From IMG/VR virus record IMGVR_UViG_3300035698_026847, positions 1 through 64,000 of that record: a stretch of DNA of 64,000 bases. One strand, written 5' to 3'. Every line of letters begins with the position of its first letter. Within the stretch, counting starts at the first letter, position 1. Below the pieces are notes generated by a model. It did no database searches. It had not been told where the DNA came from and saw only the letters and a list, made by a program, of their open reading frames with translations. Source of the DNA: a virus. Below, one piece after another: positions 4,414-40,821 of the stretch. A program made the position numbers and the translations under genes.

Positions 4414-5287
4414 ATTCTTCTCTTTTATATCGTGATTCATATTCATCTCTATATTCTTCAATGTTTTTTATTTGTTTTTTATGTATCATTCCATGATGGT
4501 TCCGACATAGAATAATTAGATTTAAAATATTATTATTGCATCTATCCTCGTCTAAATGATGAACTAAAACCATTGCGGAAAAACCGCAAATATAACATTT
4601 ATGATCCATTTGGGATAAAGCCTTTTTTCTATACGACCCTATTCCTGTTTGTTTTTTCATGTAAAATGTTTCTTTTAATCCTAAAAGTTTTCTTATATTT
4701 TTATATCCTCCATGATATTTTTCAATTGCACTTTTTGGACTATATCCTATTTCTGCTTGTATTACTGTTGCAGAAGGAACTGTTCCATATTTGTCGATTA
4801 ACGGTTGCAACACTTTCTTTAAATTTTCTAAATTACCATAATAACCATTTGGTTGAGTTCTTGAATTTTCGTATAATTTTGGCAATCCCAATCTTTCCCT
4901 TACAGCCTTAAAGCCTCCAAAATATCTAAAGGCATCTGATAGACTTCCTTTCCCCTCCTCTTTCATCACGTTATAAGAAGGGATGGTTCCATATTTTTCA
5001 ATAAATGGTTGTAACTCTTTTTTAAAATTATCCCAACTTTGCCAATACCCAATAGGAACATAGCAATTATTTTGCTGTTTTTTTGTTTGTATAATTTCTA
5101 TATTCATTTTTTTAGCTACTTTTTTTGGACCTCCATGTTTATATATTGCACACATTATGTCTTTTCTATTATTTCTTTTAAAATAACCACAATTAGGTAG
5201 ACCTCCATATTCTTTCACATAAGGCATTAACGCAGATTCTAAAGTTTCAAATTTTTTCCATTTTGATTCTCTTGATTTTTTTTCCAT
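4406..5287 (-). CDS. HNH homing endonuclease with DNA-binding repeats, splitting the CCA-type gene
   Basis: 293 residues. Start chosen at ATG 5287 because GGAGGGG lies 11 bases upstream; an upstream ATG at 5308 has no site. The N-terminal two thirds holds three copies of a ~65-residue unit (LQPFIEKYGTIPS ... FGGFKAVRERLGL), the homing-endonuclease-associated repeat used for target binding. The C-terminus is an HNH nuclease: CYICG, then VHHLDEDRCNN, NLIILCRNHHGMIH. It lies between two genes whose products together make one CCA-type enzyme, the usual position of a homing gene that disrupted a conserved site. Overlap with the downstream half suggests translational coupling. HNH family is clear; target and activity are inferred. 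Confidence 0.9.
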   Translation of the reverse strand: MEKKSRESKWKKFETLESALMPYVKEYGGLPNCGYFKRNNRKDIMCAIYKHGGPKKVAKKMNIEIIQTKKQQNNCYVPIGYWQSWDNFKKELQPFIEKYGTIPSYNVMKEEGKGSLSDAFRYFGGFKAVRERLGLPKLYENSRTQPNGYYGNLENLKKVLQPLIDKYGTVPSATVIQAEIGYSPKSAIEKYHGGYKNIRKLLGLKETFYMKKQTGIGSYRKKALSQMDHKCYICGFSAMVLVHHLDEDRCNNNILNLIILCRNHHGMIHKKQIKNIEEYRDEYESRYKREEYE

Positions 5288-5345: not shown

Positions 5346-6101
5346 TTATTCCTTTGTGTGGATTTGTTTTTCTCCGCATTTTTTACATTTTTCTATACTT
5401 AGTCTTGAAATTAGTTGCATTCCGCGAAGCACCCTCAATGGATCCTCTGAGAATTGATCACTCGTGGCTCTCATTATTCCGTTTTCAATATCATCAACTC
5501 CACCAAAATAATCATGCAATTCTTCCTCAATAGCGTCATATGCAAGAGAATTAAATGTAAAATCTCTTCTTGACGCTGCTTCTTTTGGATTTATATTTGG
5601 ATCAAACTCAGTAGTAATTCCACGACCACGGTTACCGCCCATTTCTCCGATTTGACTAGGATCATTTTCTGTCTTACTATCTCTTCTCGGGATAGAAAAA
5701 TCATAATCTTGTCCTTCTTCGTCTACCAGCTTAATTACTCCAAAGGCTTTACCTACTAAATTGATTTTCCCATATGGTTCAAGCATTTTAACAAGATTAT
5801 CATAATCTGTTCCGTATACTTCTATATCGATATCTTTTGATGGTAGGCCAATTATTGCGTCTCTAACAGCACCTCCTACAATCAAAGATAAATGTCCGTT
5901 TTCTCTCAAATAATTCATTATTTCAAGACATTTATTTGAAATAGGTATATTTAGTTTTTTATTATAAATACCTTCTAGATTATCTTGAGATGTTTTGTAC
6001 CATTTTCTATTTTTATCGGGAACAGGAATGTCTAGATTCTTTACCGTAGAAGACTTTTTCTCAATATCAGCATACCAACTACCGTTTTTTTTCTCAATCA
6101 T
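5346..6101 (-). CDS. N-terminal half of split CCA-type nucleotidyltransferase (head and start of neck)
   Basis: 251 residues; AAAGG site before ATG 6101. A Pol beta-type nucleotidyltransferase head of the class II CCA/poly(A) polymerase family: VGGAVRDAIIG, the metal-binding pair KDIDIEVYG, RRDFTFNSLAYD and the neck EDPLRVLRGMQL. Homology stops at ISRL, just where family members continue with GF. The chain then ends in a 17-residue tail carrying CKKCG. The rest of the neck and the HD domain are encoded at 2356-4413, beyond an HNH gene. Residues ~30-40 contain NRKWYKTS, like the N-termini of several neighbouring phage proteins. It could add CCA to tRNA or act as another NTP transferase; substrate unknown. 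Confidence 0.82.
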   Translation of the reverse strand: MIEKKNGSWYADIEKKSSTVKNLDIPVPDKNRKWYKTSQDNLEGIYNKKLNIPISNKCLEIMNYLRENGHLSLIVGGAVRDAIIGLPSKDIDIEVYGTDYDNLVKMLEPYGKINLVGKAFGVIKLVDEEGQDYDFSIPRRDSKTENDPSQIGEMGGNRGRGITTEFDPNINPKEAASRRDFTFNSLAYDAIEEELHDYFGGVDDIENGIMRATSDQFSEDPLRVLRGMQLISRLSIEKCKKCGEKQIHTKE

Positions 6102-6114
6102 TTATCTATACCTT

Positions 6115-6690
6115 TTACTGGTTTGAACCTCTATTCATGGAAATTAAAACTACATCTGGAACATTATCTTGTCCCATGATAAACTGTCTCATTATATTTA
6201 TCATGTTATAGTTTTGACTGAGAATCTCAACAGTTTGATCTAATTGAGAAATAATTTCTGCATTTCTAGTTGGAAGATTGATCGTTGGGCTAGATAACGA
6301 CGCTTGCAAATCATTTAAGTTCTGTATGTAATTTGCTAGATCAAAGAAATATTCTCCAGTTGTTGCAAATGCGTAAACGGTTTCTATATTCTGATCGTCT
6401 ACTCCTGCTGGACGGAGAAAATTTTCAATTATAGAATCCTTGAATTGTTCAGGGTCTATATCTCCTTGTGGTTCTTCTGCGTTTATATCTGTATCTAAAT
6501 TCTGATTATTTTGAAATGAAGTGTCGGCAGCATCTGAAGATACCAAATCTCCCTCAAGGCCAACTTCGTTTAAATTTTCCTGAGCAAATTGTTTTAAATT
6601 TCCTAATCCGGCAAAAACATGAACTGGTTTTACATCCGGAGACTTATCTTCCGTGTCTATAGTTAAGCTATTACAATTAAGATGAAACAT
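6115..6690 (-). CDS. Hypothetical protein, helical C-terminal half
   Basis: 191 residues from ATG 6690. That start follows the stop of the upstream gene by one base and uses the GAGAAGGG inside that gene's last codons; an in-frame ATG at 6705 has no site. The N-terminal ~75 residues are acidic and rich in Asn/Asp; the C-terminal half looks alpha-helical (FLRPAGVDD, ANYIQNLNDLQ, EIISQLDQTVEIL). No family recognised. Position between two nucleotidyltransferase-like genes in a tail-proximal operon leaves a virion or assembly role possible. Confidence 0.7.
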   Translation of the reverse strand: MFHLNCNSLTIDTEDKSPDVKPVHVFAGLGNLKQFAQENLNEVGLEGDLVSSDAADTSFQNNQNLDTDINAEEPQGDIDPEQFKDSIIENFLRPAGVDDQNIETVYAFATTGEYFFDLANYIQNLNDLQASLSSPTINLPTRNAEIISQLDQTVEILSQNYNMINIMRQFIMGQDNVPDVVLISMNRGSNQ

Positions 6691-6691
6691 T

Positions 6692-7738
6692 TTACCCTTC
6701 TCCATTTGAACGAGTCAAATTCAAAATTTTATTGCTTCTATCTACTTTCTTTTTATTAATAAACTCTGGCTCAGGATTGTCTAAATAATAACCAGACCTA
6801 GCTCGTTCTAATATATTGAATTTTTTTTCTGTCCTTTGCGTTTGCTCTCTTTTTTTTCTTCTCATATATGCTTTATGTTTTTCACGATCTTTAAAAAGTC
6901 TATTCATCATTGGAGTTTGGGCAATTTTCATTGTCGAAGCTGTTGGGGAAATGGTAGTGCCAAACATTTGCTCTTTTATTCCCTGTTGTAAATCTGCATT
7001 ACTTGGTAAATGTTCTAATAGTCCATATCTTTCGTAAAACTCAATAGCCCTTTGAGGATCTACATCCATTGTCTTCTTAATTGTTCGCTGAACCATTTGA
7101 CTATTAGGATGCTCTTGAAGAAACTCTACAAGATAAGGAATGAATTTTGGAATCTCTCTTTCATAATCTTCATCTACCGTCAAGTCAAACTGAACTGTAA
7201 ATCTAATTCCTCTTAGAATGATCTTGGGATTAATCGCTAGAGTCTTCTTTGGTTCCAATGGTGTTCTAAGAATTTTATTTTCTATGTCTGAAACTCCATA
7301 CCCAGTAACATCCTGAATACCACCAGAATCCGGATCAAACAATAAAGTATTAATCGTAAAATCTCTCGAATAGACATCTTTATTTAATGGCGTTGGCTCG
7401 ACTCCAAGTGAATAAAGCTGATCTATAATATGAGGAACATTAAAAAAAGCATTATGAAATTCTATATCTCTTCCACTTGGCATTTGAATAAACGCTGTAC
7501 CGGAAGATTCATATATTTCAGGTTCCATAAGGTTATATTTTGCAGATACGAAAAATGCTAAATCAAAGGCATTGCCATAACCTTCTGTGACATCAAGATC
7601 GGTATCGTCAGAAACTCCCAATCCCATGACAAGATCACGAGGAAACCCTCCAACTACATATAACTTCATTTGGAGGTCTTTTGCAACGACATCTATTTGA
7701 GCTAAATCTTTAGCTATTTCTGATGGAAGCTGTATCAT
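6692..7738 (-). CDS. Pol beta-type nucleotidyltransferase (CCA/poly(A) polymerase-like), second copy
   Basis: 348 residues; its ATG overlaps the upstream stop (ATGA). The head shows VVGGFPRDLVMG, DDTDLDVTEG (metal pair) and SRDFTINTLLFD, followed by a neck-like INPKIILRGIRF. So it belongs to the same superfamily as the split gene at 5346-6101 but is a separate, diverged member. It has no HD domain. The C-terminal ~90 residues are very basic (KAYMRRKKREQTQRTEKK), probably nucleic-acid binding. Role unknown: tRNA end repair, RNA tailing or a toxin-like NTP transfer are all possible. Two such enzymes this close together in a phage is unusual. Confidence 0.75.
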   Translation of the reverse strand: MIQLPSEIAKDLAQIDVVAKDLQMKLYVVGGFPRDLVMGLGVSDDTDLDVTEGYGNAFDLAFFVSAKYNLMEPEIYESSGTAFIQMPSGRDIEFHNAFFNVPHIIDQLYSLGVEPTPLNKDVYSRDFTINTLLFDPDSGGIQDVTGYGVSDIENKILRTPLEPKKTLAINPKIILRGIRFTVQFDLTVDEDYEREIPKFIPYLVEFLQEHPNSQMVQRTIKKTMDVDPQRAIEFYERYGLLEHLPSNADLQQGIKEQMFGTTISPTASTMKIAQTPMMNRLFKDREKHKAYMRRKKREQTQRTEKKFNILERARSGYYLDNPEPEFINKKKVDRSNKILNLTRSNGEG

Positions 7739-16794: not shown

Positions 16795-18558
16795 TCACCT
16801 TTGTCCAGTTCTTACGAGTCTAATTCTAGGAAGAGTGGTTAGACCCTGAGCTCCTTGACACATGGAAAAAATACATCCACCGAGACAATCTGCCAAGTCG
16901 TCAAACGGATAATCATTATCATCTGGTGTGTTTTCTATAACTACATTGTTTTTTGTATATTTTATCCTTATATTTTTTAATTCTCCTACCACTTCCGTAT
17001 CATCGTTACATAACTCAATTCTGCCAGTAATGAAAAAATCCCTCATTGTTTCGAATATTTTATTTTTCATCGCACCTCTAAAAGACATTTCTCTGAAATT
17101 TATTCTTTGATTTTTTAATTTTTTTTGTTGTTCAAGACTAAACATCTGATCCGCTGTTACCGCTACAATTTTGAATTTACTAAACAATGGAAGAATAAAT
17201 GTATCCATAATCTCATCAGGATCTAATACTCCCCCAGATTCTGCCTGAAATGTTTTTGAATAATCTTCAACAGCTATATCTAAAAACGATCTTGAATCAT
17301 TATCAAATCGTTTTTCGAGATGACATACCATAACTGCCCATCTGTCTGAGTTTCTTGCTGGATCAATATGCATAAAATAGGGGGTTCCCATAATCCCCTC
17401 TCCTCGTTTATACCAGTTTTCACGACGATTTGACGCATCCTCAATTAATTGATGTGGAATAAATATGTTTCCACCAGATTTTCTAAACTGAGCTCCGTAT
17501 TCGGAAGCAGCTCTATCTGGATTTTTGTCAAATTTATCCTGAAAGCTTGATCTTGTAAAGTTTGGATTTGCGTTCCATGTTGGGATTTGGAACAACAACA
17601 TTGTATCTATTTGTTTCGCTGAACGACAATGGTCATGGAAAAAACCACTTGGGAGATCAGGTGTTGAAATTACTATATTTCTTCCGTCTCCAGAAGAATA
17701 AAACGTCGAAGTAGATGGTTCAATTGCCGTATAGACCTCTTCTGCCGAAGCTCTTCCGCTAGAGTCAACATAGTGAGCCATCTCATCGTAAATACACGCG
17801 ACAGTTGAATGACCACGTAACGCTTGAGAGTTTGAGTTTCCACATGCAATTACGATGGATCCATGCTGGGCTTTTCCTCCTGACTTTTTGATTCTTTCAT
17901 TTCTTTTTATGTCGGTGTCTGTAAGGAGGTAAATCATATCCTCAGTTACATGGCCTATTCTTCCGTAAAATGATGGGCAGTCATATATGAAGTTTTTAAT
18001 TTGACTAAATATGATTGTTTTAGCCTGTTTTTCTGAAATAGCTGTATTGATAATCCAAAGTTCACCTCCAAGCTTTCTTTTTTCGTCTCCGTAAAAAGCG
18101 TGAGGATCTTTCATCGCAACAAGTTTGTACGCTTCATAAACAGCTATCAGAGCACTGAGCCATGATTTTCCAGATCTTCTCCCCAATACCAAAACTATAT
18201 CTCTAAAAAAGCTATTACTTGGGTCTTCTGAAAATGTTTTTCTGTTTTCTTCTAGTATTTTAAGCTTTGAATGTTCTCCGTACAAAAGCCAATCATTAGG
18301 TATTTCCCAACTTTTAATCTCTTTTATATCTTCCTCTGTAATTTCTAGATTTTCGTTAAATCGATTCCCAGCATATAAGAATTTTAAAACAATTTCTTGA
18401 GGAAGATAAGGATACGCAGATAATAAATTATTAGCAAAAGAGACTACATCAAGAATCTTTCCATCTTTTTCTACTTCTTCTTTTTTTATTTTTTTTATCG
18501 CATCGCTCAACAGCTCATGCGGATCAAATACTACTTGCTTTGCTTTTCGTAACGCCAT
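16795..18558 (-). CDS. terL: Terminase large subunit (packaging ATPase/nuclease)
   Basis: 587 residues; GGGGGAGG site at the start. ATPase domain: Walker A LGRRSGKS (~residue 125), Walker B ACIYDEMAHY and a coupling-motif-like VISTPD. C-terminal RNase H-like nuclease domain: first Asp in MHIDPARNSD, a second in VTADQMF and a third near YPFDDLADCLGG. It forms the DNA-packaging motor with the portal and cuts concatemers. The preceding gene has the position expected for the small subunit. This gene is the strongest evidence that the sequence is a tailed phage. Confidence 0.95.
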   Translation of the reverse strand: MALRKAKQVVFDPHELLSDAIKKIKKEEVEKDGKILDVVSFANNLLSAYPYLPQEIVLKFLYAGNRFNENLEITEEDIKEIKSWEIPNDWLLYGEHSKLKILEENRKTFSEDPSNSFFRDIVLVLGRRSGKSWLSALIAVYEAYKLVAMKDPHAFYGDEKRKLGGELWIINTAISEKQAKTIIFSQIKNFIYDCPSFYGRIGHVTEDMIYLLTDTDIKRNERIKKSGGKAQHGSIVIACGNSNSQALRGHSTVACIYDEMAHYVDSSGRASAEEVYTAIEPSTSTFYSSGDGRNIVISTPDLPSGFFHDHCRSAKQIDTMLLFQIPTWNANPNFTRSSFQDKFDKNPDRAASEYGAQFRKSGGNIFIPHQLIEDASNRRENWYKRGEGIMGTPYFMHIDPARNSDRWAVMVCHLEKRFDNDSRSFLDIAVEDYSKTFQAESGGVLDPDEIMDTFILPLFSKFKIVAVTADQMFSLEQQKKLKNQRINFREMSFRGAMKNKIFETMRDFFITGRIELCNDDTEVVGELKNIRIKYTKNNVVIENTPDDNDYPFDDLADCLGGCIFSMCQGAQGLTTLPRIRLVRTGQR

Positions 18559-19834: not shown

Positions 19835-21193
19835 CTACGAAGTTTTCTTTAAGTCGAATTCTTCTATCGAAGATTCAGTTGTAGGTTCAGTTGTAGGTTC
19901 AGATGTAGGTTCAGATGTAGGTTCAGATGTAGGTTCAGATGTAAGTTCTGTTTGTTGTTTTATTATGCTTTGAATATCTTCTATGCCTATTGGTTCTCCG
20001 ACATTAAAACTATATTCTCCAATATCTATGGCAACTGTATATCCGCCAGCGTCCATTGGACCTCCTTGGAAAATCTTCAATGTTGCAGGAAATTCATGTA
20101 ATGGCCCCTTTGATTCCGCTTGTGGTGCTGTTGTTTCTGTCGGAGCTACTTCTGATGCTCCTGTTGGTGTTCCTGGAGTCGAAGATGGAGATCCAGAAGT
20201 CGGTGATCCAGGAGATGGAACCGGTTCTCCGGGAGTTGATACTGTTGGATCTACTTCCTCCATACCCGGTGTAGATATATTTGCTACCGGTTCCTCCATG
20301 GGTTCAAGCACATCCACTAGATCTTTTTTCAATGATTGTAATTGCTGAACTGCACTAGTATCTCCAGTTGCGTGAGCTAAGCTTTCAGTAGACTTTATAA
20401 ACGAAGAATATGTTTTTTTAATGCCAGACAAAGCTTTCCTCAGAGGCTCCAGCTGAGGATATAATTTAGTATCTGCAGTTTTTAAACTTTCAATAACGGT
20501 ATTCAATATAGCACCTTGCTGAAGAATAATTCCTATTGCTTTCCCTATCTGACTATAAAGTGTTGCTATTTGCTGTTCATTAATATTAGCTGCAAATTTT
20601 TCCAGACCTGAATCATTAATGGATTTTGTTTCTATAGATTCTTGGAAAATAATTGGAAAAAATTGTTCATTTTCGGTTAGTCCATTTATCGATGATCGTA
20701 GTGTTGCCATAGATTGTAAGAATGGAGTAATTGTTTGTGCCACCTGTCTAAATTCATCTGAACCTTTTCCGAGTTTGCCAAGAAGTTTTTCTATTGGAGA
20801 ACTACCAAGCAATCCCCAAACATTTGACCATTTTGGTCGAACAACAGAATCAATTAACCCCAAAGATTGGTTAACGCTTGCTAGACGAATCTTAATCTCG
20901 TCAAGGCGAGCTTGCATTGCTTTATCTGCTTCTAATTGAGGGTCGGTTTGAGGGCCGGTTTCTGATCCCCCTATATTTATGTCGTCTACAGTAAAAACAC
21001 CTTCTGTTGATTCTGCATTCGCTTTAGATCCGTTGTCTGGACCTGGAAGTGTTTTTTGAGGAGCCTTGTAAGGGGCCATTTCGTATTGTACTGCCGTTTT
21101 ATTCGCCTGTTCTTCGGCAAATTTATTCAACCATTCCATATTCCCAGCAACAAGATAAAGATCATTATTATGTTTGGTTCTTTTAAGACTCAT
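19835..21193 (-). CDS. Hypothetical protein with helical core and Pro-Thr-Ser-Glu tail
   Basis: 452 residues. ATG 21193 has GGAG eight bases upstream and overlaps the sigma gene by 11 bases. Residues ~19-33 read MEWLNKFAEEQANK, like the WYK-type starts nearby. Residues ~90-290 are helical and heptad-like (LRKALSGIKKTYSSFIKS). Two low-complexity stretches follow: a Gly-Ser-Pro-Thr linker (~320-350) and a C-terminal TSEP/TTEP repeat (~430). Probably an elongated structural or scaffold-like protein; no family recognised. Confidence 0.68.
   Translation of the reverse strand: MSLKRTKHNNDLYLVAGNMEWLNKFAEEQANKTAVQYEMAPYKAPQKTLPGPDNGSKANAESTEGVFTVDDINIGGSETGPQTDPQLEADKAMQARLDEIKIRLASVNQSLGLIDSVVRPKWSNVWGLLGSSPIEKLLGKLGKGSDEFRQVAQTITPFLQSMATLRSSINGLTENEQFFPIIFQESIETKSINDSGLEKFAANINEQQIATLYSQIGKAIGIILQQGAILNTVIESLKTADTKLYPQLEPLRKALSGIKKTYSSFIKSTESLAHATGDTSAVQQLQSLKKDLVDVLEPMEEPVANISTPGMEEVDPTVSTPGEPVPSPGSPTSGSPSSTPGTPTGASEVAPTETTAPQAESKGPLHEFPATLKIFQGGPMDAGGYTVAIDIGEYSFNVGEPIGIEDIQSIIKQQTELTSEPTSEPTSEPTSEPTTEPTTESSIEEFDLKKTS
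19873..19946 (-). repeat. 12-bp coding tandem repeat (Thr-Ser/Thr-Glu-Pro)
   Basis: Six near-identical 12-bp units (plus-strand gtaggttcagat) encode consecutive Ser/Thr-Glu-Pro-Thr units at the C-terminus of the preceding gene. Likely variable in copy number; encodes a disordered acidic tail. Confidence 0.85.
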
Positions 21194-21818
21194 TATTTTT
21201 CTCCGTAATTTTCCTTTGATAAACTCTATACACTTTTTCTTTTCTTTCTTTACCTCTAACTGTTTTACCCTTATAGTTTAGTTCGCTACGAAACTTTTTT
21301 CTCGCCCAAAAAGAACGAGTTTCTAGTGAAGTTCCTGTTATTGCAAGTAGATTCCTGCATTCTTCCATAGAGATTCCAACAAAATAGTTCAAGAAAATGT
21401 ACTCTTTTTGCTTTGCAGTTAGGGACTTTATGGTTCTTTTCACCCTTATTCTGTGAGGTAATCCTGGTTTTTTACGCTTAAAGTCCAATAAAAATCGATT
21501 ATCTACGATATTACCTTCGTATATATCATATTGATCCCTCAACATGATTCTGCTTTTTTCTATAATTTTGCTTTTCAAAGAGTATCCGAACGAATATCTA
21601 TCATCGAACTTATAGGACATAATAATATCCCAGAAGAATATATAAAAATTATGAAATATATCTATTTTGTGGTATTTGACTGTTTTGTGGACGGAGCAGA
21701 TAGCCTCAAACAGGTCTTCCATAACAAAGTTATACATTGACCAAAGTCGTCTGAATGCATCTTTGTCTCCCTGTTTGGCTCTTAAAACATACATATAGAT
21801 ATATGCTTTTTTGTTCAT
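21183..21818 (-). CDS. ECF-like sigma factor
   Basis: 211 residues; its ATG overlaps the stop of the membrane-protein gene (ATGA). N-terminal region 2-like segment (RAKQGDKDAFRRLWSMY, residues ~13-30) and C-terminal region 4-like helix-turn-helix (SLTAKQKEYIFLNYF ... GISMEECRNLLAITGTS, ~130-165) followed by a basic tail. Sigma factors direct RNA polymerase to alternative promoters. It is the last of an overlapping chain that begins with a histidine kinase and is followed by packaging genes, so it is a candidate late-gene activator under signal control. Region 2 is diverged, so it might instead be a sigma-like regulator. Confidence 0.75.
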   Translation of the reverse strand: MNKKAYIYMYVLRAKQGDKDAFRRLWSMYNFVMEDLFEAICSVHKTVKYHKIDIFHNFYIFFWDIIMSYKFDDRYSFGYSLKSKIIEKSRIMLRDQYDIYEGNIVDNRFLLDFKRKKPGLPHRIRVKRTIKSLTAKQKEYIFLNYFVGISMEECRNLLAITGTSLETRSFWARKKFRSELNYKGKTVRGKERKEKVYRVYQRKITEKNNES

Positions 21819-22162
21819 TTGATCCCCATCTGCCCCTTAACATTAGAGAGATCTTCCCTGGTTTCGTTGAGTTTTTCCTCAAGTTGACTGAGCTCTTCTT
21901 TGGTTGCAAAACAACCAGCATATTTTTCACTAATATCGTTCAATTTTTCATAAACCTCAACCAATTTATCAAAAATTGCAGGGTCGGGAGTTGTATTTTG
22001 GTTTTTGTTTGCTTTAACATTTTCTAAGTAATACTTTGAAATCTTAAAGATAAATATAAGAAAAATAGATACTATTCCAAAAATTATAAATGCAGCAAAA
22101 ACTCCACTCACATCCTGTGGGAGTTTGCTTGGGTCTAGAATCTCTATATCAAACCAATTCAT
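21815..22162 (-). CDS. Small membrane protein with coiled coil
   Basis: 115 residues. One strong transmembrane helix (GVFAAFIIFGIVSIFLIFIF, ~20-40) followed by a basic stretch and a heptad-rich C-terminal coiled coil (EELSQLEEKLNETRE). Start and stop overlap both neighbours by one and four bases. Architecture resembles small phage holins or spanin-like proteins, but its place between a receiver-PAS gene and a sigma gene also allows a role in signalling or in holding the sigma factor at the membrane. Function unassigned. Confidence 0.75.
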   Translation of the reverse strand: MNWFDIEILDPSKLPQDVSGVFAAFIIFGIVSIFLIFIFKISKYYLENVKANKNQNTTPDPAIFDKLVEVYEKLNDISEKYAGCFATKEELSQLEEKLNETREDLSNVKGQMGIK

Positions 22163-23100
22163 TATATATCCTCTATATTTTGTATTTTATTAATCTCTAA
22201 ATTGGCAAGACTCAACATTACGGATATGTCTTTCTTTTCTAATCCGTAGTTTTTAATGATATTCTGTATTTGATTCTGTGTTTCTATTAGCTTTTTCTCA
22301 GTCATCTTTTGTTCGGTAACATCAACAAATGTAACTATACGAAATAAATTATCACTACCATTCTTTATTTCAATTGCCCTACAGGACATTTTGCAAGAAA
22401 CTGGTAAACAATTGTTATTTTCTATTTCTACCCTAACTTCTATCGGTTTTTCGGAACATGGACAGGACGAAATGTTTTTTGGGCATAAATGTTTCTTTAC
22501 AACAGAATTATTATATAATATATCACTATATTCATGAATATCAAAAAAATTTTCAAAATTTATATCAATTGCACTATCAAGATTAAACATTTGATTAAAA
22601 GATGCGTTTGATTCTAGAATCTTCCCAGATGAAAAATCAATTAGACAAATTGCCGAAGAAGTTGTTTCGAAAACTAATGATTTTAATTCTTTTTCGTGTA
22701 CAATCTTCTTCTCTAACCGTTTTTGGTTCATAGCATATCTTATAGATCTTTCAAGCATGCTGGAATCAATTTTATCTTTGATTAAATAATCAGTTACCCC
22801 AAGATTCATTGCGTCGATATCTATATTGTCATTTTTTTGACCTGTAAGAAATATGATAGGTTTGTTTGGTATGAAATCTTTTGTTTCAGAAACTAAATCA
22901 ATTCCATTTTTGATGCCAAGACCATAATCAACAAGATAAACATCATGCTCGTTTTTCCGCATAACAATTAACGCTTCATTATATGTGCTTGCTCTGTCTA
23001 AAACGAATATAACTCTTTTTATTCTAGATAGATATTTTTGTGTAATTAAAAAATCATCATCATCATCGTCTATAAATAATACTTTTATTTTTTCTTTCAT
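22162..23100 (-). CDS. Response regulator: receiver plus PAS domain
   Basis: 312 residues. Receiver domain (1-125): acidic pocket FIDDDDDDF, phosphoacceptor Asp in VYLVDYGLG, Thr in IIFLTGQ and Lys in DYLIKDK. A linker helix (RSIRYAMNQKRLEKK) leads to a PAS domain (~140-270, AICLIDFSSGKILESN ... FVDVTEQK) with an inserted Cys-rich loop (HLCPKNISSCPC). There is no DNA-binding or catalytic output domain, so it probably signals by protein contact. It overlaps the upstream receiver gene by four bases and the membrane-protein gene by one. Confidence 0.88.
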   Translation of the reverse strand: MKEKIKVLFIDDDDDDFLITQKYLSRIKRVIFVLDRASTYNEALIVMRKNEHDVYLVDYGLGIKNGIDLVSETKDFIPNKPIIFLTGQKNDNIDIDAMNLGVTDYLIKDKIDSSMLERSIRYAMNQKRLEKKIVHEKELKSLVFETTSSAICLIDFSSGKILESNASFNQMFNLDSAIDINFENFFDIHEYSDILYNNSVVKKHLCPKNISSCPCSEKPIEVRVEIENNNCLPVSCKMSCRAIEIKNGSDNLFRIVTFVDVTEQKMTEKKLIETQNQIQNIIKNYGLEKKDISVMLSLANLEINKIQNIEDI

Positions 23101-23543
23101 TTGGAACCTCTTGGAAGCTTTGCTGACTCAAACCAAAATCTTCCAGTTCTGTACATGATTTCTTTTAAATCATCGTAGAAGCCGGGTTTAGTGATATATG
23201 AATTCGCACCACTCTGATAACTTTCCTCTATGTCCTCCCGAGATCTACTGGTCGTTAGAACGATAATGGGAATATCTCTCAATTCTTCATCTTCTCTGAT
23301 CTCAATTAAAGATTCGATTCCACCCATTTTGGGCATCTTTAGATCAAGAAAAACAATAGATGGACGAGGAGATTCTTTGAATTCGTCTTCTTTTCTCAGG
23401 AAACGCAAAAGACTTTCACCATCAGTAACTGAATGAATATCTATATCTATATCTTTATCAATATAGTTCTCTTGTATAGCTTTTTCGGCAAATGATTGGT
23501 CGTCTTTGTCATCGTCAGCAATCAGTACAATAATCTTCTCCAT
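23097..23543 (-). CDS. Single-domain response regulator (Rcp1/CheY-like)
   Basis: 148 residues from ATG 23543, preceded by AAAGGA; it overlaps the kinase gene by 29 bases. Complete receiver: acidic pair in IADDDKDD, phosphoacceptor in IVFLDLKMPKMGG, Thr in IIVLTTSRS and Lys in SYITKPGFYDDL. The long, acidic form resembles Rcp1-type regulators that partner phytochrome-like kinases. With no output domain it probably passes phosphate to, or binds, another protein. The adjacent kinase is the likely donor. Confidence 0.9.
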   Translation of the reverse strand: MEKIIVLIADDDKDDQSFAEKAIQENYIDKDIDIDIHSVTDGESLLRFLRKEDEFKESPRPSIVFLDLKMPKMGGIESLIEIREDEELRDIPIIVLTTSRSREDIEESYQSGANSYITKPGFYDDLKEIMYRTGRFWFESAKLPRGSK

Positions 23544-24777
23544 ATGCCGTTCCTTTATGATCAATCGGAATCTCTAGGGAAAACTTCGACCCTTTACCGT
23601 CACTACCGGAACAGCTAACCGTCCAACCGTGTCTCTCGGCGATCCTCTTACAAATTGCCAAACCTATTCCAGAGCCAGGATATTCATCTTTGCTGTGAAG
23701 TTTTTGGAAGGTTTGCCATAAGAGGTCGCTATATTTTTTATCAAAACCTATACCATTGTCTTCTACAGACAAAATATACCTGTCTTTATCTTCTGATATT
23801 ACACACCTTATCCCTATAAGTAGTTTAATATTTTTTCTTTTGAATTTGATTGAATTACTTAAAAGATTTGTAAGCAATTGTTTCAGTTGGTTTGAATCGC
23901 AGTAAACCTTAGGCATTTCTTCAATTTCTATAAAAGCATCTGATTCTCTTATCTTGCAGTCTAGATCTACTGTAATTATTTCATTAATTATTTTATTAAT
24001 GTCAGTTTCTTCGAAAGACTCTCCTTTGGTTGAAACTCTTGAATAATTAAGTAGATCATCTATAAGATTTTTCATTCTTTCCGCTGCATTGCTAATCCTT
24101 GAAAAATAATATTTACAATCATCCGTAAAACGATCTGCGTTTTTCATTTCTTCTCTGATAAGTTTTTCAAAAGCTGTTATTTTTCGAAGTGGTTCCTGTA
24201 AATCATGAGAGACAACATATGCAAAATTTTCAAGATCTTGATTACTTAATTTGAGTTTTTTTAGTGTGTTAACTAAACGAAACTCTTTTCTTTGTAATTC
24301 TGTAATATCATAACCAACAGCTTGAATCTCGACTGGTTTTTTGTTTTTGTTAAAAATTAAACAGTCTTCCCAAGAAATCCATCTCCATCCAGTTGGAGTC
24401 ATTACCCTTTGATTCATTCCGCTTTTGTGATCTGATGATTTAAAAAGCAATTCAACTTGTCGTTCTGTCTCTGGTATATCATCTGGGTGTACTACGGGAG
24501 AATAAATCTTTCCAAGAATTTCTTCTTTAGATACTGCAAATTTATTGCAATATGCTTTGTTTACGAAAGTTATTTCATTGTTCATATTGACACGGACAAT
24601 TAATGCGTGTTGGGTCTCTACTATTTTCCTATATCTTTCTTCGCTCTTTATTAGTGCCTGTTGAATTCTTTTATTTTCTAATCTACGATCATACTCATCA
24701 AAATGTCTGTTTACAATAAAAATAGATTCATTTTTATTGACTGGTTCATCATCAATTATTAGAATCTTATTTATCAT
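23515..24777 (-). CDS. Soluble PAS-domain sensor histidine kinase
   Basis: 420 residues, no transmembrane helix, so cytoplasmic. Starts with MINKILIIDDEPVN, the first strand and acidic pair of a receiver domain whose remainder is absent. PAS domain ~45-165 (RYRKIVETQHALIVRVN ... GYDITELQRKE). HisKA phosphoacceptor His in YVVSHDLQEPLRKI (~190). HATPase_c: N box LLTNLLSNSIKF, G1 VEDNGIGFD, G2 GSGIGLAICKRIAERHGW. All catalytic motifs are present, so it should autophosphorylate. It overlaps the upstream nuclease gene by four bases and the receiver gene by 29. Histidine kinases are rare in phages. Confidence 0.92.
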   Translation of the reverse strand: MINKILIIDDEPVNKNESIFIVNRHFDEYDRRLENKRIQQALIKSEERYRKIVETQHALIVRVNMNNEITFVNKAYCNKFAVSKEEILGKIYSPVVHPDDIPETERQVELLFKSSDHKSGMNQRVMTPTGWRWISWEDCLIFNKNKKPVEIQAVGYDITELQRKEFRLVNTLKKLKLSNQDLENFAYVVSHDLQEPLRKITAFEKLIREEMKNADRFTDDCKYYFSRISNAAERMKNLIDDLLNYSRVSTKGESFEETDINKIINEIITVDLDCKIRESDAFIEIEEMPKVYCDSNQLKQLLTNLLSNSIKFKRKNIKLLIGIRCVISEDKDRYILSVEDNGIGFDKKYSDLLWQTFQKLHSKDEYPGSGIGLAICKRIAERHGWTVSCSGSDGKGSKFSLEIPIDHKGTAYGEDYCTDC

Positions 24778-25346
24778 CTTTTTTTTCCATCTTCTTCTTT
24801 CGCTTCTCCACTGAAAAAGAAGGAATCATTTTCCAAAATGAGATCGTGCAAAGACATAACAATCCATTCTTTCCATTGTGGGAACTTTTCAACATCAAAA
24901 TCTACCAGAAGAATACTTTTTCTACCTTTTTTAATAATCTTTGACAAAGCAGTTGCTCGACTGTGATTTTTTCTTGGTAAAGCGATTATGGTGTCTCTTC
25001 TATCTTTCGTATAAAGCACCATAGGAATCCTTCCCATTGTTCTGGAAGAATCTTCACAAGCTTGTTCACAAAAGCTCTGAAATGTTTTTCTATCTGTTGT
25101 TGATTTGTCGGAGAATAAACAAAAAAGATCGATATCATATCCGGTCTTAACTTCCATTGAAAAAATCCATTCGGTAGGACAGATTAAATCTCCGGAAAGC
25201 ACCTTTTGAGCATCTAATTGTAAAATATGGGTTGATCCGAAAGCACCCGAGCTGGGAACACGGTTAAATTTTATGCCAAACCGTTCAGTTAATGTCTTGC
25301 AAATTTTCAGTTCACCTCTATTTCCCTTTTTCTTGCTATTTGCCAT
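24774..25346 (-). CDS. Holliday-junction resolvase-like PD-(D/E)XK nuclease
   Basis: 190 residues; GGAGGG eight bases before ATG. N-terminal KGNRGELKICKTLTERFG, then RVPSSGAFG, LSGDLICP and MEVKTGYD match the layout of Hjc-type resolvases (Glu of GNRGE, Asp of SGD, Glu-x-Lys of EVK). Such enzymes cut four-way junctions formed in recombination and packaging. C-terminus is basic. It leads an overlapping operon running into the histidine kinase and has a promoter-like sequence just upstream. Confidence 0.72.
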   Translation of the reverse strand: MANSKKKGNRGELKICKTLTERFGIKFNRVPSSGAFGSTHILQLDAQKVLSGDLICPTEWIFSMEVKTGYDIDLFCLFSDKSTTDRKTFQSFCEQACEDSSRTMGRIPMVLYTKDRRDTIIALPRKNHSRATALSKIIKKGRKSILLVDFDVEKFPQWKEWIVMSLHDLILENDSFFFSGEAKEEDGKKR

Positions 25347-30211: not shown

Positions 30212-30994
30212 CTATCTCCTTTGAATTGTTTTACTTATTTTTATATCATCAACTTTTTTTTCAAAAACTTTAGGATTAATATTTAACCTTTCTAGAGTTT
30301 TTTTTATTTTTGGACGACTTCTTACTATCGCATTATCTATACTTTTTGAATCTAATATTGTTTTTCCATCTTTATTCTTTTTGTAGAACGAAAGAATACT
30401 TGCAACTTCTTTATAGGAATATCCTTCGATAAATCTTAAAACAAAAACCTTTTGTTCCATATCTGATAAATTTTTTGAAACTTCTTCAATCAAATACTCT
30501 TCGTAGTCTCTTGATATTACTTCCATCGAATTTCCAAGTGAAGAATTACCCATGGATTTTTCCGACGCCACTGTTTCTATATACGATACGGAATCTCCTT
30601 CATCGTTTTGGATACTATCATCTAAACTAAAAGAAGTATTGAGAATTACACGTTTTTTAGCCATCTCTCTATTGATAGTAGTTATTATGTGTTTTCTAAT
30701 AGATGACTGTGCAAAGGCCATAAAACTCCCTTTATTCGAATCATACTTATCAATAACATTAATAAGTTTAAGTGCTCCCTCTTGAAAAACATCTTGCGGC
30801 TCACCACCCTGGATAAAAAATTCTTTAGTTAAATGAGCTAAATATCCATACATATGACAAAGTATAGATTTAAAAGCTGCTTCGTCTTTGTTTTTCGCAA
30901 GTTTTATTTTTTCTTCCAATTCCTTCTTTGTAAGTTTTATATGTTTAATTCCTGGAAAGAAACCGAAATTTAACTCTTCTTTACGATTCATCAA
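30212..30994 (-). CDS. Sigma-70 family factor, SigH-like
   Basis: 260 residues; GGAGG site before ATG. Region 2: EPQDVFQEGALKLINVIDKYD, then FMAFAQSSIRKHIITTINRE, typical of core-binding and -10-recognising helices of SigH/Spo0H-type factors. Region 4: NLSDMEQKVFVLRFIEGYSYKEVASIL, a helix-turn-helix for the -35 box. More complete than the second sigma-like gene at 21183. Probably switches RNA polymerase to a phage gene class. Preceded by a consensus-like TTGACA promoter, so it is likely an early gene read by host polymerase. Confidence 0.88.
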   Translation of the reverse strand: MMNRKEELNFGFFPGIKHIKLTKKELEEKIKLAKNKDEAAFKSILCHMYGYLAHLTKEFFIQGGEPQDVFQEGALKLINVIDKYDSNKGSFMAFAQSSIRKHIITTINREMAKKRVILNTSFSLDDSIQNDEGDSVSYIETVASEKSMGNSSLGNSMEVISRDYEEYLIEEVSKNLSDMEQKVFVLRFIEGYSYKEVASILSFYKKNKDGKTILDSKSIDNAIVRSRPKIKKTLERLNINPKVFEKKVDDIKISKTIQRR

Positions 30995-31030
30995 TACGCC
31001 TCCATGTGATAATTACTACTCACAAAAAGG

Positions 31031-31059
31031 TATATTGTGTATTTTGTTAATTATGTCAA
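31031..31059 (-). promoter_or_regulatory. Sigma-70-type promoter for the SigH-like gene
   Basis: Minus strand TTGACA, 17-base spacer, then AATATA in the gap between dnaX and the sigma gene. Perfect -35 with a fair -10, about 37 bases from the start codon. Suggests transcription by the unmodified host polymerase. Confidence 0.6.
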
Positions 31060-31066
31060 CTTTCTA

Positions 31067-32173
31067 TTACATTTTACCATTTTCTATCTCTCTAATCATT
31101 TCTACAATACATGTGTCCAATAGAATATCTGTTCTATTTACATTTCTTATTTCATTCACATATGATGAAAATTTCTTTACCATATATATAACTAGATCTA
31201 CACTGACTTTCGACTTAACCTCAGACCATTGTTTTCTTGATGGTTCTTCGACATGAAGAACGTCTTTCCCTACACTTTTACAAATCATCATTGTGTGTGC
31301 ATTTTCAAGGAGATCTTCCAAAATTGCTTCTGGAAGTTTTCCTTTATTCACTATCTTCTTTACGAGATGCAATGATCCAAGGTAATCCTTGTTTTGCATA
31401 GAAACAAGAAGATCGCAAAAGAATCCTTGACCAAGGCTACGGCCAATGCATTCGTCTACCAATTTTACATCTATTGAGATTCCATCGCTTTGGCTGATAA
31501 TCGGTTCAAGAATTGTTAAGGCATCTCTAACGCTTCCCTTTGCCGCCTTAGCAATACTCATTATTGCTTCGTTTTGAAATTTGGTTATCCCTTCTTTTTG
31601 GGCTATGATGTTTATAAATTTAGCTATCGTCTTTGTCTGGATTGCCTGTAAATTGAATTTTTGACATCTTGATCTAATCGTCGGTAGAATACGATGTCCT
31701 TCCGTTGTTGCTAGAATGAACATTGCTGATTCTGGAGGTTCCTCTAAGATTTTCAGCAAGGCCGAAGCTGCCGGACCCTTAAGGCAATGAACCTCATCTA
31801 TAATAAACACTCTCTTCCTGCACATTATTGGATAATTCATTGCGGTTTTACGAATATCACGAATATTATCAATTGAAGTATTCGTTGCTGCGTCTAATTC
31901 GATAATATCTCCTGCGGCGTTACTGTTCTCAATCGCAGAACATATTGGGCTTTTGATATCATATTCTAGACTTGGACCGTCTTCGCAGTTTACAATCATA
32001 GAAATTATTCTTGCGATTGTAGTTTTACCAACGCCTCTTGGGCCATGCAGAAGATAGGCATGAGACAGCATGTCTTTCGCAACAGCCTTCTCAAAATATT
32101 TCTTTACATGTTCTTGTCCGATAATATTCTTTAGTTTTTTCGGTCTGTATTTCGTATAAAGTGATGTGTTCAT
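31067..32173 (-). CDS. dnaX: DNA polymerase III gamma/tau-like clamp-loader ATPase
   Basis: 368 residues. AAA+ motor: KYRPKKLKNIIGQEHV at the N-terminus, Walker A HGPRGVGKTT, Walker B VFIIDEVH, sensor 1 LATTEGH, the SRC motif TIRSRCQKF. A Cys pair remains of the usual four-Cys zinc module. Length is that of gamma (domains I-III); there is no tau tail for helicase or polymerase contact. Drives loading of the clamp encoded at 26.4-27.7 kb with HolA. No delta-prime gene is in the window. Confidence 0.92.
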   Translation of the reverse strand: MNTSLYTKYRPKKLKNIIGQEHVKKYFEKAVAKDMLSHAYLLHGPRGVGKTTIARIISMIVNCEDGPSLEYDIKSPICSAIENSNAAGDIIELDAATNTSIDNIRDIRKTAMNYPIMCRKRVFIIDEVHCLKGPAASALLKILEEPPESAMFILATTEGHRILPTIRSRCQKFNLQAIQTKTIAKFINIIAQKEGITKFQNEAIMSIAKAAKGSVRDALTILEPIISQSDGISIDVKLVDECIGRSLGQGFFCDLLVSMQNKDYLGSLHLVKKIVNKGKLPEAILEDLLENAHTMMICKSVGKDVLHVEEPSRKQWSEVKSKVSVDLVIYMVKKFSSYVNEIRNVNRTDILLDTCIVEMIREIENGKM

Positions 32174-37401: not shown

Positions 37402-40400
37402 TTATTCGTTTTCGTTATTAGAGAACGAAAGAGACTTCCCATCGCTGTCTATATATACGATAGAGTTTTCCTTAAATTCTCCAGAAAGGATTTTTGTAGC
37501 TAGAACATTTTCAACTTCATGTTTTATGGTCCTTTTCATTGGTCTAGCACCATATTTATCAGAATAACCCATTTTGCACAATAGAGACCTCGACGAGTCT
37601 GATATTTCGATTGGATAACCAACATCAACAGAACGCTTTACGGTATTTGCGAATTCAATGTCAAAAATTTTACCAATATCATTTTTTTCAATTTTTCTGA
37701 AAATTACAACTTCGTCTATTCTGTTTAGGAATTCTGAACTGAAATATTTTACAGATTCTTGTTTAAGGAAGATTTCTATTTCTTTTTGCGACAATGTCTC
37801 AGTGGTATTAAATCCTAATGTTTGCTTTTTATTCAATTTTGATGTAGACAGATTTGAAGTCATTACAATTATTGTGTTTCTGAAATCAATTAACCTTCCC
37901 ATATTATCCGTTAAGCGACCTTCATCAAATATCTGTAAAAAAATATTCAAAACATCTTTATGTGCCTTTTCTATCTCATCTATTAGTAAAACCGAATAAG
38001 GTCTTTTTCTTACCTCTTCTCCAATCTTACTTCCATCGTCATAACCTATATATCCTGGTGGACTACCTATTATCTTATTTACTGATATCTTCTCCATATA
38101 CTCCGACATGTCAAGCCTGATTAATTTATTGTCTCCAAAAAGAATTTCTGATAATGTTTTGGCGATATATGTTTTTCCTACACCTGTTGGGCCAAGAAAA
38201 AGAAACACTCCAATTGGTTGATTTGGATCTTTAATTCCTACTCGCCCAGTTTTAACGGCATTAGCTATTAGATTTACCGCATTATTCTGTCCAATAATGG
38301 TTTCTTTAATTTTTTCATCAAGTGAAGATAATATATCTTTTTCTTTTCCGCAAACCGAAGCTAACGGTATCCCCGTCATATCGGCAACAACTTCATGCAC
38401 CGTTTCTGTTTTTAAAGAATTAGAATCTTTCCCCATAACTTCCAGAACACATGATTCGTCTAAAACATCTAAAGCTTTGTCTGGGAATCTTCTCCCTATT
38501 AGATATCTGTCTGAAAGCTTAACAATTTCTATAATAATTTCGTTTTCTATCTTTATATGGTGAAACTGTTCATATTCGTTCTTTACTTTATCTAGGATAT
38601 CTATTGTTGTGTCAACTGATGGTTCTTCTATTAACACATTAGAAAATCGTCTAGACAGGGCATCATCCTTTTGGAAAACTCGACGATAATCTTCCCATGT
38701 TATAGCTCCTATACACTGCACAGAACCCTTTGCTAATAATGGCTTGACCATCGTACTGGCGTTAACGGAGCCTTCCGCAGCACCTGTATTAATTAGTGTC
38801 TGGATCTCGTCAAAAAACATAACAACACGGACTTCTAATGAATTTGCATTCTCCATGAAAGTTAAGACGCTTTTCATTCTTTCTTCAAATTGTCCTCTGT
38901 ATTTCGTTCCGGAAACTAAGTTTCCCATATTAACTGAATATATTTTTGTATTTTTAAATCTTTCAGGTACTTCTCCGAGAACAATTTTTCTAGCAAGTCC
39001 CTCTACAAGTGCAGTATTGTGCGTTACGATAAAGTTATCAGTTATATATAGATGGTCGTTATCGTCAAGTAGAATACATTGACATTCTTTCATTCCTATA
39101 TGTTCTATGTTTTCTATTTCCAGTTTAAGATCTTTATATTGATAATTTTTAGATAATCTATTTTTTTTTCTATCTAGAAGGAATAATTTTTTTGGATTTT
39201 TATATCTAATTTTGAGATTATAGCTCTTTCTTCCATCTTTAACTAGCCCTTTATAGGTATATCTTGTATGTTTTTCTTTTATTTTACATATTCCACCTAT
39301 TGAGCGAACAAGATACTGAACATCTCTCGATAGATTAAAGCTTGTAGTACAGAAACTAACACTGCCACTTTTATCTACAGTGCCATCAGTATCTAACAAT
39401 CCTTTTAATAAATTCAATCTATTTGTAAAATTAGTTTCAAGATAATCTTTTGGAATAAATTTTTCATAAGATTTTTTATCCAACAATCCATACTCTCTAA
39501 GCTTGTTTTTATAAAAATGTAATTTCCCACTATATCTTGAAGATTTATGTTTTCCCATAGACAAATTATAATCATATTTTGTTGATTTATTTAAAACATA
39601 TCCATTTTTTATTTTTTCATTTAAAATTTCAATTATTTGATCATCTGATGAAGATACTTTTATACAATATTTTTCAGAAATATATCCATCTCCAAGTAAA
39701 ACTCCCAAAAAATAGGGATCTATTTTGCATTTTTTATCTATACTTAAATTAATTTCTTCTATCAGCGGAACATAGATTCTCCTTCCCTTGTTATTGTTTT
39801 TTTCGTTTATAATATCTTTGCATTCTTTAATAAACCATCTCGCTTTCCTTTTCTCAACAGATCTATGGCTTGATGTTTTCCAAATCTTCCATAGATGATT
39901 TTTTGTTGTCTGTGTAGATCTTCCGTCTTTAAATTTTATTTCGTAAATTTCTTGAATTCCTTGTGGAAAAATCCCTATTATTTTAGAAATCTTTCCAGAC
40001 GGAGTTATAACCTCATCATTTATTTTTAAATCACCATTTTTAACCCATCCATCCGTAGTTAATATCTTACTATCTAAAGGCTGTGCTTTCCCTGTTCCAG
40101 GTTCCCCTATAGCGATAACATTTTTCTTTTTTTTCCTAGATAAAATTCGAATACACCGATTAATCTCATCTTCTCTACCGATGAATTTTTCGTCACTCAG
40201 AGACATTCTCTCATTTAAATCTTCTATAAATCCATTCTTTATTAACGAATCTCGCAATTTCCTTATATTATTCTTAAGCGGAGTAGATCCATTTTGTGAA
40301 TCTTGTTTGTTATTCGCTGTCTCTTGAAAGATATCTTTCAGTAGATTATATGTTTCTCCTTTTTCACCTATAATAGATATTCTAAAATCACGACTATTAA

Positions 40401-40821
40401 TACCAAAACTCATTAGCATTTCTTTTATCTGTTTTGTCGGATTGCTTCTGCCTCCGTATTCAGTAAAGGCAAGGATGACATGTTCGATGTTGATATATGG
40501 ATGATCTAAGGCAGTAACAATTCTATCAGCTGAGTGAAGGATGAATCTAGTCGAAGGGTCTATACCCTTTTTTTTTGATATTGATTGGTTTTCGTTTATT
40601 AGCGGAAGATTTTGTATTTTTTTTACTATTTCATTTTTATCTATATCAAACTTCTCTATGATTTTTCCGACAATTGGAATGTCATTCCCATACCAAAAAC
40701 AATGAATTAAATCTCTCGGATAGATACATGTTCTCTCGTCTGCTCGGGCTATTGCTTCCGCTTTTCCCTGAATAATATTTTTTAGTTCAGGAGATAATTT
40801 ATTATTAAATTTTTCAAGCAT
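37402..40821 (-). CDS. ClpA/ClpC-type AAA+ unfoldase interrupted by an intein
   Basis: 1139 residues; 782 without the 357-residue intein, close to ClpA. N-domain ~1-150, AAA1 with P-loop GEPGTGK|T (intein between K and T), VVMFFDEIQTL Walker B; AAA2 with FLFLGPTGVGKT, LLIDEIEKAHKDV, and C-terminal D2 small domain (YGARPMKRTIK). The loop KKQTLGFNTTE sits where ClpA has its IGL/IGF ClpP-docking tripeptide. A ClpP is encoded at 55.9 kb, so the phage probably makes its own ClpAP-like protease. No middle (ClpB) domain. Starts with AGGAGAGG. Confidence 0.93.
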   Translation of the reverse strand: MLEKFNNKLSPELKNIIQGKAEAIARADERTCIYPRDLIHCFWYGNDIPIVGKIIEKFDIDKNEIVKKIQNLPLINENQSISKKKGIDPSTRFILHSADRIVTALDHPYINIEHVILAFTEYGGRSNPTKQIKEMLMSFGINSRDFRISIIGEKGETYNLLKDIFQETANNKQDSQNGSTPLKNNIRKLRDSLIKNGFIEDLNERMSLSDEKFIGREDEINRCIRILSRKKKKNVIAIGEPGTGKAQPLDSKILTTDGWVKNGDLKINDEVITPSGKISKIIGIFPQGIQEIYEIKFKDGRSTQTTKNHLWKIWKTSSHRSVEKRKARWFIKECKDIINEKNNNKGRRIYVPLIEEINLSIDKKCKIDPYFLGVLLGDGYISEKYCIKVSSSDDQIIEILNEKIKNGYVLNKSTKYDYNLSMGKHKSSRYSGKLHFYKNKLREYGLLDKKSYEKFIPKDYLETNFTNRLNLLKGLLDTDGTVDKSGSVSFCTTSFNLSRDVQYLVRSIGGICKIKEKHTRYTYKGLVKDGRKSYNLKIRYKNPKKLFLLDRKKNRLSKNYQYKDLKLEIENIEHIGMKECQCILLDDNDHLYITDNFIVTHNTALVEGLARKIVLGEVPERFKNTKIYSVNMGNLVSGTKYRGQFEERMKSVLTFMENANSLEVRVVMFFDEIQTLINTGAAEGSVNASTMVKPLLAKGSVQCIGAITWEDYRRVFQKDDALSRRFSNVLIEEPSVDTTIDILDKVKNEYEQFHHIKIENEIIIEIVKLSDRYLIGRRFPDKALDVLDESCVLEVMGKDSNSLKTETVHEVVADMTGIPLASVCGKEKDILSSLDEKIKETIIGQNNAVNLIANAVKTGRVGIKDPNQPIGVFLFLGPTGVGKTYIAKTLSEILFGDNKLIRLDMSEYMEKISVNKIIGSPPGYIGYDDGSKIGEEVRKRPYSVLLIDEIEKAHKDVLNIFLQIFDEGRLTDNMGRLIDFRNTIIVMTSNLSTSKLNKKQTLGFNTTETLSQKEIEIFLKQESVKYFSSEFLNRIDEVVIFRKIEKNDIGKIFDIEFANTVKRSVDVGYPIEISDSSRSLLCKMGYSDKYGARPMKRTIKHEVENVLATKILSGEFKENSIVYIDSDGKSLSFSNNENE
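39016..40086 (-). mobile_element. Class 3 intein with LAGLIDADG endonuclease in ClpA P-loop
   Basis: 357 residues beginning with Ala (AQPLDSKILTTDGW) instead of Cys/Ser, ending IVTHN before Thr. Trp in block B (TTKNHLWKIW), Cys in block F (MKECQCILLDD) and Thr before the final HN make the WCT set that defines class 3 inteins, where the block F Cys is the first nucleophile. Endonuclease motifs FLGVLLGDGYI and LKGLLDTDGTV. Insertion between Lys and Thr of the first Walker A blocks ATP binding until splicing. Confidence 0.9.

Follow-up and report, generated by a model that had tools for sequence, protein, structure and literature searches.

A stretch of viral DNA of 64,000 nucleotides (positions 1 to 64,000 of the IMG/VR record IMGVR_UViG_3300035698_026847, which is 70,510 bases long; hereafter the window) encodes a two-component signalling module which consists of a histidine kinase, a single-domain receiver (REC1), a receiver-PAS protein (REC2) and a membrane-anchored coiled-coil protein. 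A divergent sigma factor of the extracytoplasmic function (ECF) type follows. The first four genes recur in the same order in other phages, and this recurring signalling module is a more general and better-supported finding than the signal-gated sigma switch which a preliminary description of the DNA had proposed. The reading favoured here, with about even confidence, is that phages captured the module as a self-contained circuit for phosphotransfer, in which REC2 would act with the membrane coiled-coil protein; in this lineage, a late-operon sigma factor lies beside it.

The module and its recurrence in other phages

The kinase (23515–24777, 420 aa; the five genes of the chain, the nuclease gene before it, TerL and the second sigma gene all lie on the minus strand) is a soluble protein with a PAS domain (Pfam, 1.4e-8), a HisKA domain (5.7e-9) and a HATPase_c domain (1e-22), and has no transmembrane segment. 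Motif alignment places its phospho-accepting histidine in SHDLQEPLR and shows intact N and G boxes. A chromophore-binding photosensor (PAS-GAF-PHY) was not found in the kinase with Pfam, which detects a single PAS only. It is plausible that the kinase senses a cytoplasmic cue through this domain, which fits the absence of a transmembrane segment. For its N-terminus (MINKILIIDDEP), identity as a shrunken receiver could not be demonstrated.

REC1 (23097–23543; Pfam REC, 1.8e-18) is of the Rcp1 type. Its closest solved structures are Rcp1 and RcpA, and the match to Rcp1 (PDB 1i3c, 1.6e-25) runs across residues 5–145, the C-terminal part included. Its start is taken as the ATG at 23543, instead of the TTG at 23564 given in the mechanical list of open reading frames (ORFs). 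REC2 (22162–23100) consists of a receiver (2.9e-12), a PAS domain (PAS_9, 1.1e-5) and a short helical tail; it has no kinase or DNA-binding output domain, and no sigma-like domain was found fused to either receiver protein with Pfam and NCBIfam. Both receivers have the acidic pocket and the aspartate, threonine and lysine residues; in an alignment of 20 phage receivers, the pocket, the phospho-accepting Asp, the Thr/Ser and the Lys are all kept. The fourth gene (21815–22162) encodes a protein of 115 residues recognised by hydropathy (3.07) and a heptad rule, with one strong transmembrane segment (residues 21–39) followed by a heptad-rich part that is predicted to be cytoplasmic. The sigma gene (21183–21818, 211 residues) comes next.

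The preliminary description was accurate as to this layout: the five genes run head to tail from 24777 to 21183 with overlaps of exactly 29, 4, 1 and 4 bases, the phosphorylation residues are intact, and the genes past the sigma factor lead into the terminase, whose large subunit (TerL, 16795–18558; phrog_2, 9.9e-29) served as the reference gene for synteny. Upstream, the gene of a PDDEXK nuclease or RusA-like resolvase (24774–25346; Pfam PDDEXK_15, 1.6e-22; phrog_244, 1.9e-17) overlaps the kinase gene by 4 bases. Single overlaps carry little weight, because genes on the minus strand are generally packed (16 of the 49 junctions overlap). The longest run of overlaps on the strand comprises six consecutive junctions, beginning with the nuclease gene and ending with the gene that follows the sigma factor; a run of this length is reproduced in 2% of the shuffles when junctions are permuted. 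The operon around the module has hardly any intergenic space, and the counts of promoters and terminators in a search for late promoters are close to chance level.

Relatives were found by alignment-based searches with the kinase, TerL and the receiver-PAS protein; single-protein scans of IMG/VR with the sigma factor, the kinase and TerL gave no matches, nor did a receiver alignment. The kinase, REC1, REC2 and membrane coiled-coil genes are tightly packed and in the same order in the Microcoleus phage My-WqHQDG (L003), in two of its kin (L021 and L022), and in the contigs L016 (168.9 kb), L020 and L025, the last two of which have tail genes in common. The phage origin of L016 is less certain, its TerL match being weak and crossing stops. 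In none of these six does a sigma gene follow the membrane gene. A search of the contigs for sigma families gave a very weak match (1.3e-4) in L025 and none in L003, L016, L020, L021 and L022. The L016 record also has, at 30623–31696, an RNA polymerase beta-like ORF (open frame of 2062 aa) on a contig that carries the module and has no sigma match.

In all module phages a receiver of the Rcp1 type precedes one of the 'TG...YLxKD' type. Each module contig, including the window and its close relative L006, has exactly two Response_reg matches above the Pfam cut-off, both inside the module, and one typical kinase; the L016 contig has in addition a second, unclassified HATPase match. In three contigs of giant phages (L010, L011 and L013), the kinase is followed a few genes on by the receiver pair, on the other strand. 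Proteins of this set match PHROG families 857, 731 and 8810, all marked unknown in PHROG. A published description of the four-gene module was not found in open-access text, to which the search was confined, with subscription papers and preprints outside its scope.

Several candidates were set aside. Most kinase matches in the 'phages' collection come from short records with no annotation, which look like bacterial contamination; the gene content of MW462191 (L002) looks cellular; and among the IMG/VR contigs, L009, L015 and L017 cluster with Spirosoma-like kinases of bacteria, while L012 carries the bacterial arrangement described below. None of these is counted as a phage module.

Genes of 90–300 aa that encode a single transmembrane segment and a coiled coil are rare: they make up 10 of 236 in these phage loci, and 6 of the 10 are the fourth gene of the module; this count is post hoc, and misses the L006 gene because its extended ORF counts two transmembrane segments. 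The charges which flank the transmembrane segment suggest that the coiled coil is cytoplasmic in several phages. Matches of fourth-gene proteins to phrogs are weak: a hemolysin (0.009) and a holin (0.047) for L016, and an Rz-like spanin (0.04) for L006. Neither Pfam nor phrogs gave a lysis family for the window protein, and the anti-phage defence models of PADLOC gave only a weak match of ZorA2 to the transmembrane coiled-coil protein (6.5e-4).

In a further contig, L007, which carries TerL, a single protein (5967–6821) has a weak N-terminal transmembrane segment and a coiled coil joined to a degenerate receiver. Its gene lies just before a CHASE3-PAS kinase and a REC1 of the Rcp1 type, and its composition is the main hint that the coiled coil may be functionally paired with a receiver.

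Probable bacterial origins and closest known systems

The bacterial kinases closest to that of the window are spread over many phyla. Among the bacterial loci examined, a small receiver is encoded next to the kinase in 40, and a second receiver gene comes after it in 28. The third gene of these 28 triads usually encodes a receiver-kinase hybrid of 400–800 aa with an output domain, and in none of them was a small transmembrane coiled-coil gene seen after the receiver pair. The third phage gene, on the contrary, lacks the output domain of its bacterial counterpart, and the membrane coiled-coil gene comes next.

The kinases of the module phages are not monophyletic: the approximately unbiased test rejects a common clade (p 0.017). 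For this test, long branches were left out, bacterial rows were thinned and the module group was defined by gene neighbourhood, not by the tree. The module-bearing kinases require three changes across the bootstrap interval, while the phage kinases as a whole require 10 label changes on the tree, at least 5 of which are forced. Since the module kinases are not one clade, phages probably acquired the four-gene layout more than once and, judging from these comparisons of sequence, the source was probably the common bacterial triad of a kinase and two receivers.

The module most resembles that triad and the Cph1/BphP-Rcp1 systems, with a HisKA-type kinase bearing the SHDLQEPLR motif, then a receiver of the Rcp1 class, then a second receiver. 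It differs in that the kinase of the window has a PAS domain and lacks the GAF/phytochrome photosensor, and in that the third gene has no kinase or GGDEF-type output and is followed by the transmembrane coiled-coil gene. There is also a likeness to the Lvr system of Leptospira: among the NCBIfam models, LvrA fits the kinase core best (7.4e-50) and LvrB is one of the best for REC2 (1.2e-10), but at 170 of 1200 bits the window scores fall far short of the curated thresholds. LvrB is itself a kinase under the control of a receiver (PMC5863495, PMC13269768), whereas the phage receiver-PAS protein has no kinase domain.

Signalling genes of other kinds have been described in phages. Phage phiCDHM1 carries agr genes for AgrB, AgrD and a homolog of the AgrC kinase that is transcribed during infection (PMC3901668), but this kinase belongs to a different family, responds to a peptide signal and has no response regulator in that phage. 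In pelagiphages, curli (type VIII secretion system) clusters include a histidine kinase, the order of the genes being conserved and shared across viral families; this kinase is tied to curli genes, and neither a pair of receivers nor a membrane coiled-coil gene is described in the parts of the study consulted (PMC9599517). A survey of 224 jumbo phages describes divergent receiver-fold domains (cRec) and reports them as absent from histidine-kinase systems (PMC7824862), whereas the receivers of the window are conventional and adjoin a kinase.

The neighbouring sigma factor and alternative readings

The sigma factor of the chain is divergent. Against Pfam it scores 7e-3, under the cut-off. Its residues 3–184 are collinear with an ECF sigma family (NCBIfam PRK12543, 1.8e-7), with regions 2 and 4 in order. 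For the ortholog in L006, the match to sigma70-ECF has a value of 9.9e-10; both matches are under the curated cut-offs. An AlphaFold model built from two sequences is too poor to use (predicted local distance difference test score of 48). A second sigma factor, SigH-like, is encoded outside the chain (30212–30994; NCBIfam, 8.7e-24) and has an ortholog in L006 that is 55% identical; the phage is thus not reliant on the chain sigma factor alone. In a profile comparison, the two sigma factors of the window are collinear, but the match is weak. The L006 phage has a third sigma gene at 114711–115160 of its contig.

The linkage of the sigma gene to the module can be judged in L006, an IMG/VR contig of 146.8 kb which is the sole relative close enough for the comparison. 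A TerL search for further close relatives returned only L006 (51% identity) and L023 (65%), the latter being uninformative about the chain because it starts just upstream of TerL. In L006, a RuvC gene is followed by the kinase, receiver, receiver-PAS, membrane coiled-coil and sigma genes, then by matching genes to TerS and TerL. Identity to the window is about 37% for the full-length receiver-PAS protein, 36% for the receiver, 35% for the kinase, about 31% for the membrane protein and 27% for the sigma factor, whose gene remains next to the module despite this fast sequence change. All five genes are therefore kept in the close relative, while unrelated phages keep the first four with no sigma gene adjacent: the kinase and receivers do occur without it, but not in L006.

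Collinearity between the two phages extends all the way from the replisome genes to TerL. Therefore, the sigma gene is tied to TerS and TerL as much as to the kinase, and the synteny with L006 says little about a special link between the sigma factor and the kinase. Within this block, the gene before the kinase encodes the PDDEXK/RusA-like nuclease in the window and RuvC in L006 (6695–7198; 9.5e-14), an apparent exchange of unrelated resolvases at one place.

In the preliminary description, phosphotransfer would release or activate the sigma factor for late genes. Spelled out, this reading makes the sigma factor the pathway output: it would be held by the membrane coiled-coil protein or REC2 until phosphorylation frees it to direct the host polymerase to the late genes. 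ECF sigma factors commonly have membrane-bound anti-sigma partners, and the sigma gene overlaps the membrane gene both in the window (4 bases) and in L006 (1 base), in an order kept between two phages whose proteins are only 27–37% identical. Moreover, no RNA polymerase beta gene was found in the 70.5-kb record or in the L006 contig, so the chain sigma factor would have to work with the host polymerase. However, the four-gene unit stands without a neighbouring sigma gene in other phage groups, five of these contigs having no sigma match, the synteny extends well beyond the sigma factor and the module, domain scans found no known anti-sigma domain in the window membrane protein, and a single comparison is available. 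What stands of the proposed late switch is the phosphotransfer chain on a phage, the tight gene coupling and the ECF-type sigma factor; the sigma factor as pathway output is not supported, and this mechanism is judged unlikely. Direct gating of the chain sigma factor by the phosphotransfer circuit is a possibility; in this lineage the sigma factor may provide an additional output, or it may be no more than a late sigma factor which heads the morphogenesis genes.

The PhyR-NepR-EcfG general stress response also joins a two-component pathway and an ECF sigma factor in one neighbourhood. The window differs from it, having no receiver-sigma fusion, no match to NepR, and HisKA instead of HisKA_2/HWE.

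A second alternative is interference with host signalling. The kinase and receivers of the phage would act on host kinases and receivers of the abundant Rcp1 type, or draw phosphate from them, so that the host stays in a favourable condition, and the membrane protein would position the complex at host receptors. REC1 without an output and REC2 with a PAS domain only are what a sink or decoy would look like, host triads of this type are widespread, and the AgrC-like kinase of phiCDHM1, which has no response regulator, was read by its authors as acting via the host (PMC3901668). But a decoy needs no intact kinase and two receivers, and each module phage has a closed set of one kinase and two receivers, which makes such interference improbable. 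It is least credible that these are independent host genes lying together by chance with no joint role: phage genes are packed and overlapping in general (16/49 junctions) and the common bacterial triad could be captured in one piece, but the arrangement is repeated in several unrelated phages, the catalytic residues are intact after divergence to about 35% identity, and the loss of output domains and the gain of a membrane gene occurred at the same place.

The record also encodes a bacterial-type DNA polymerase III and a class II ribonucleotide reductase, and no tRNA genes were detected in the window. Intein or homing-endonuclease domains occur at 10219–13773 (DEAD helicase), 37402–40821 (ClpB-like AAA protein) and 41371–45108 (the ribonucleotide reductase). 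Two genes for poly(A)-polymerase/CCA-enzyme heads and an HD/tRNA-nucleotidyltransferase-like gene lie close together (5346–6101, 6692–7738 and 2356–4461). At the left end, an ORF with a long tandem array of 27-base units (60–1374) perhaps encodes a repetitive fibre or surface protein. A 67-base inverted repeat (50779–50845 and 51045–51111, 97% complementary, 199 bases apart) sits in the spacer between the divergent gene arms, where the GC skew changes sign, and is possibly a replication origin or a pair of terminators.

Proposed mechanism and significance

Kinases of this type autophosphorylate and hand phosphate to such receivers. From its intact residues, the soluble kinase of the window would do the same, reading the intracellular state through its PAS domain. 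The phosphate would be divided between the two receivers, REC1 serving as a small Rcp1-like shuttle or sink, while REC2 would bind the coiled coil that the fourth protein would anchor to the inner membrane. This contact would switch or time a membrane-linked step of the infection. In the window lineage, the module would be co-transcribed with the late-operon sigma factor, which would couple the expression of both.

The leading guess is that the module controls lysis, in particular its timing, or another membrane event, because of its membrane part and because L007 and L020 have genes for tails or virions in the vicinity. The family matches are weak, and for that reason a lysis role is not claimed here.

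A number of points weigh against the self-contained circuit favoured here. Lysis timing rests on a weak resemblance to phrogs (0.05 to 3e-5, the latter an Rz-like spanin match of the L007 protein) and on the nearby tail genes, and domain scans of the fourth gene give no clear function. There is no detectable sequence similarity among the coiled-coil proteins of different phage lineages, and the pair from the window and the Microcoleus phage fails to align. The transmembrane segment is N-terminal in the window and L006 and C-terminal in the other module phages. These differences imply that the fourth-gene proteins may be analogous and not the same part. Transmembrane segments and coiled coils were assigned by simple rules, not by a trained predictor. 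In L007, the receiver of the fusion is degenerate (Pfam, 0.003) and its transmembrane segment is weak, and the giant-phage contigs L010, L011 and L013 have no membrane gene beside the receiver pair. Finally, the weak points include the use of metagenomic contigs and the single close relative that underlies the comparison of sigma linkage.

A broader proposal, which is more tentative than the circuit itself, is that unrelated phages have repeatedly gained a private circuit (a kinase, two receivers and a membrane coiled-coil effector) that would read the state of the cell and time a membrane or late-gene step, a dedicated sigma factor being an added output in one lineage. The lytic timing of phages is usually explained by fixed clocks, such as promoter cascades and the accumulation of holin. 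The convergent layout in unrelated phages makes the module a testable unit, and its closed membership, with one kinase and two receivers, eases the mapping of transfer specificity and output. It further hints at what two phage families listed as unknown, phrog_857 and phrog_731, may do. If the proposal is true, there are phages that read the state of the cell through phosphotransfer and tune the infection to it.

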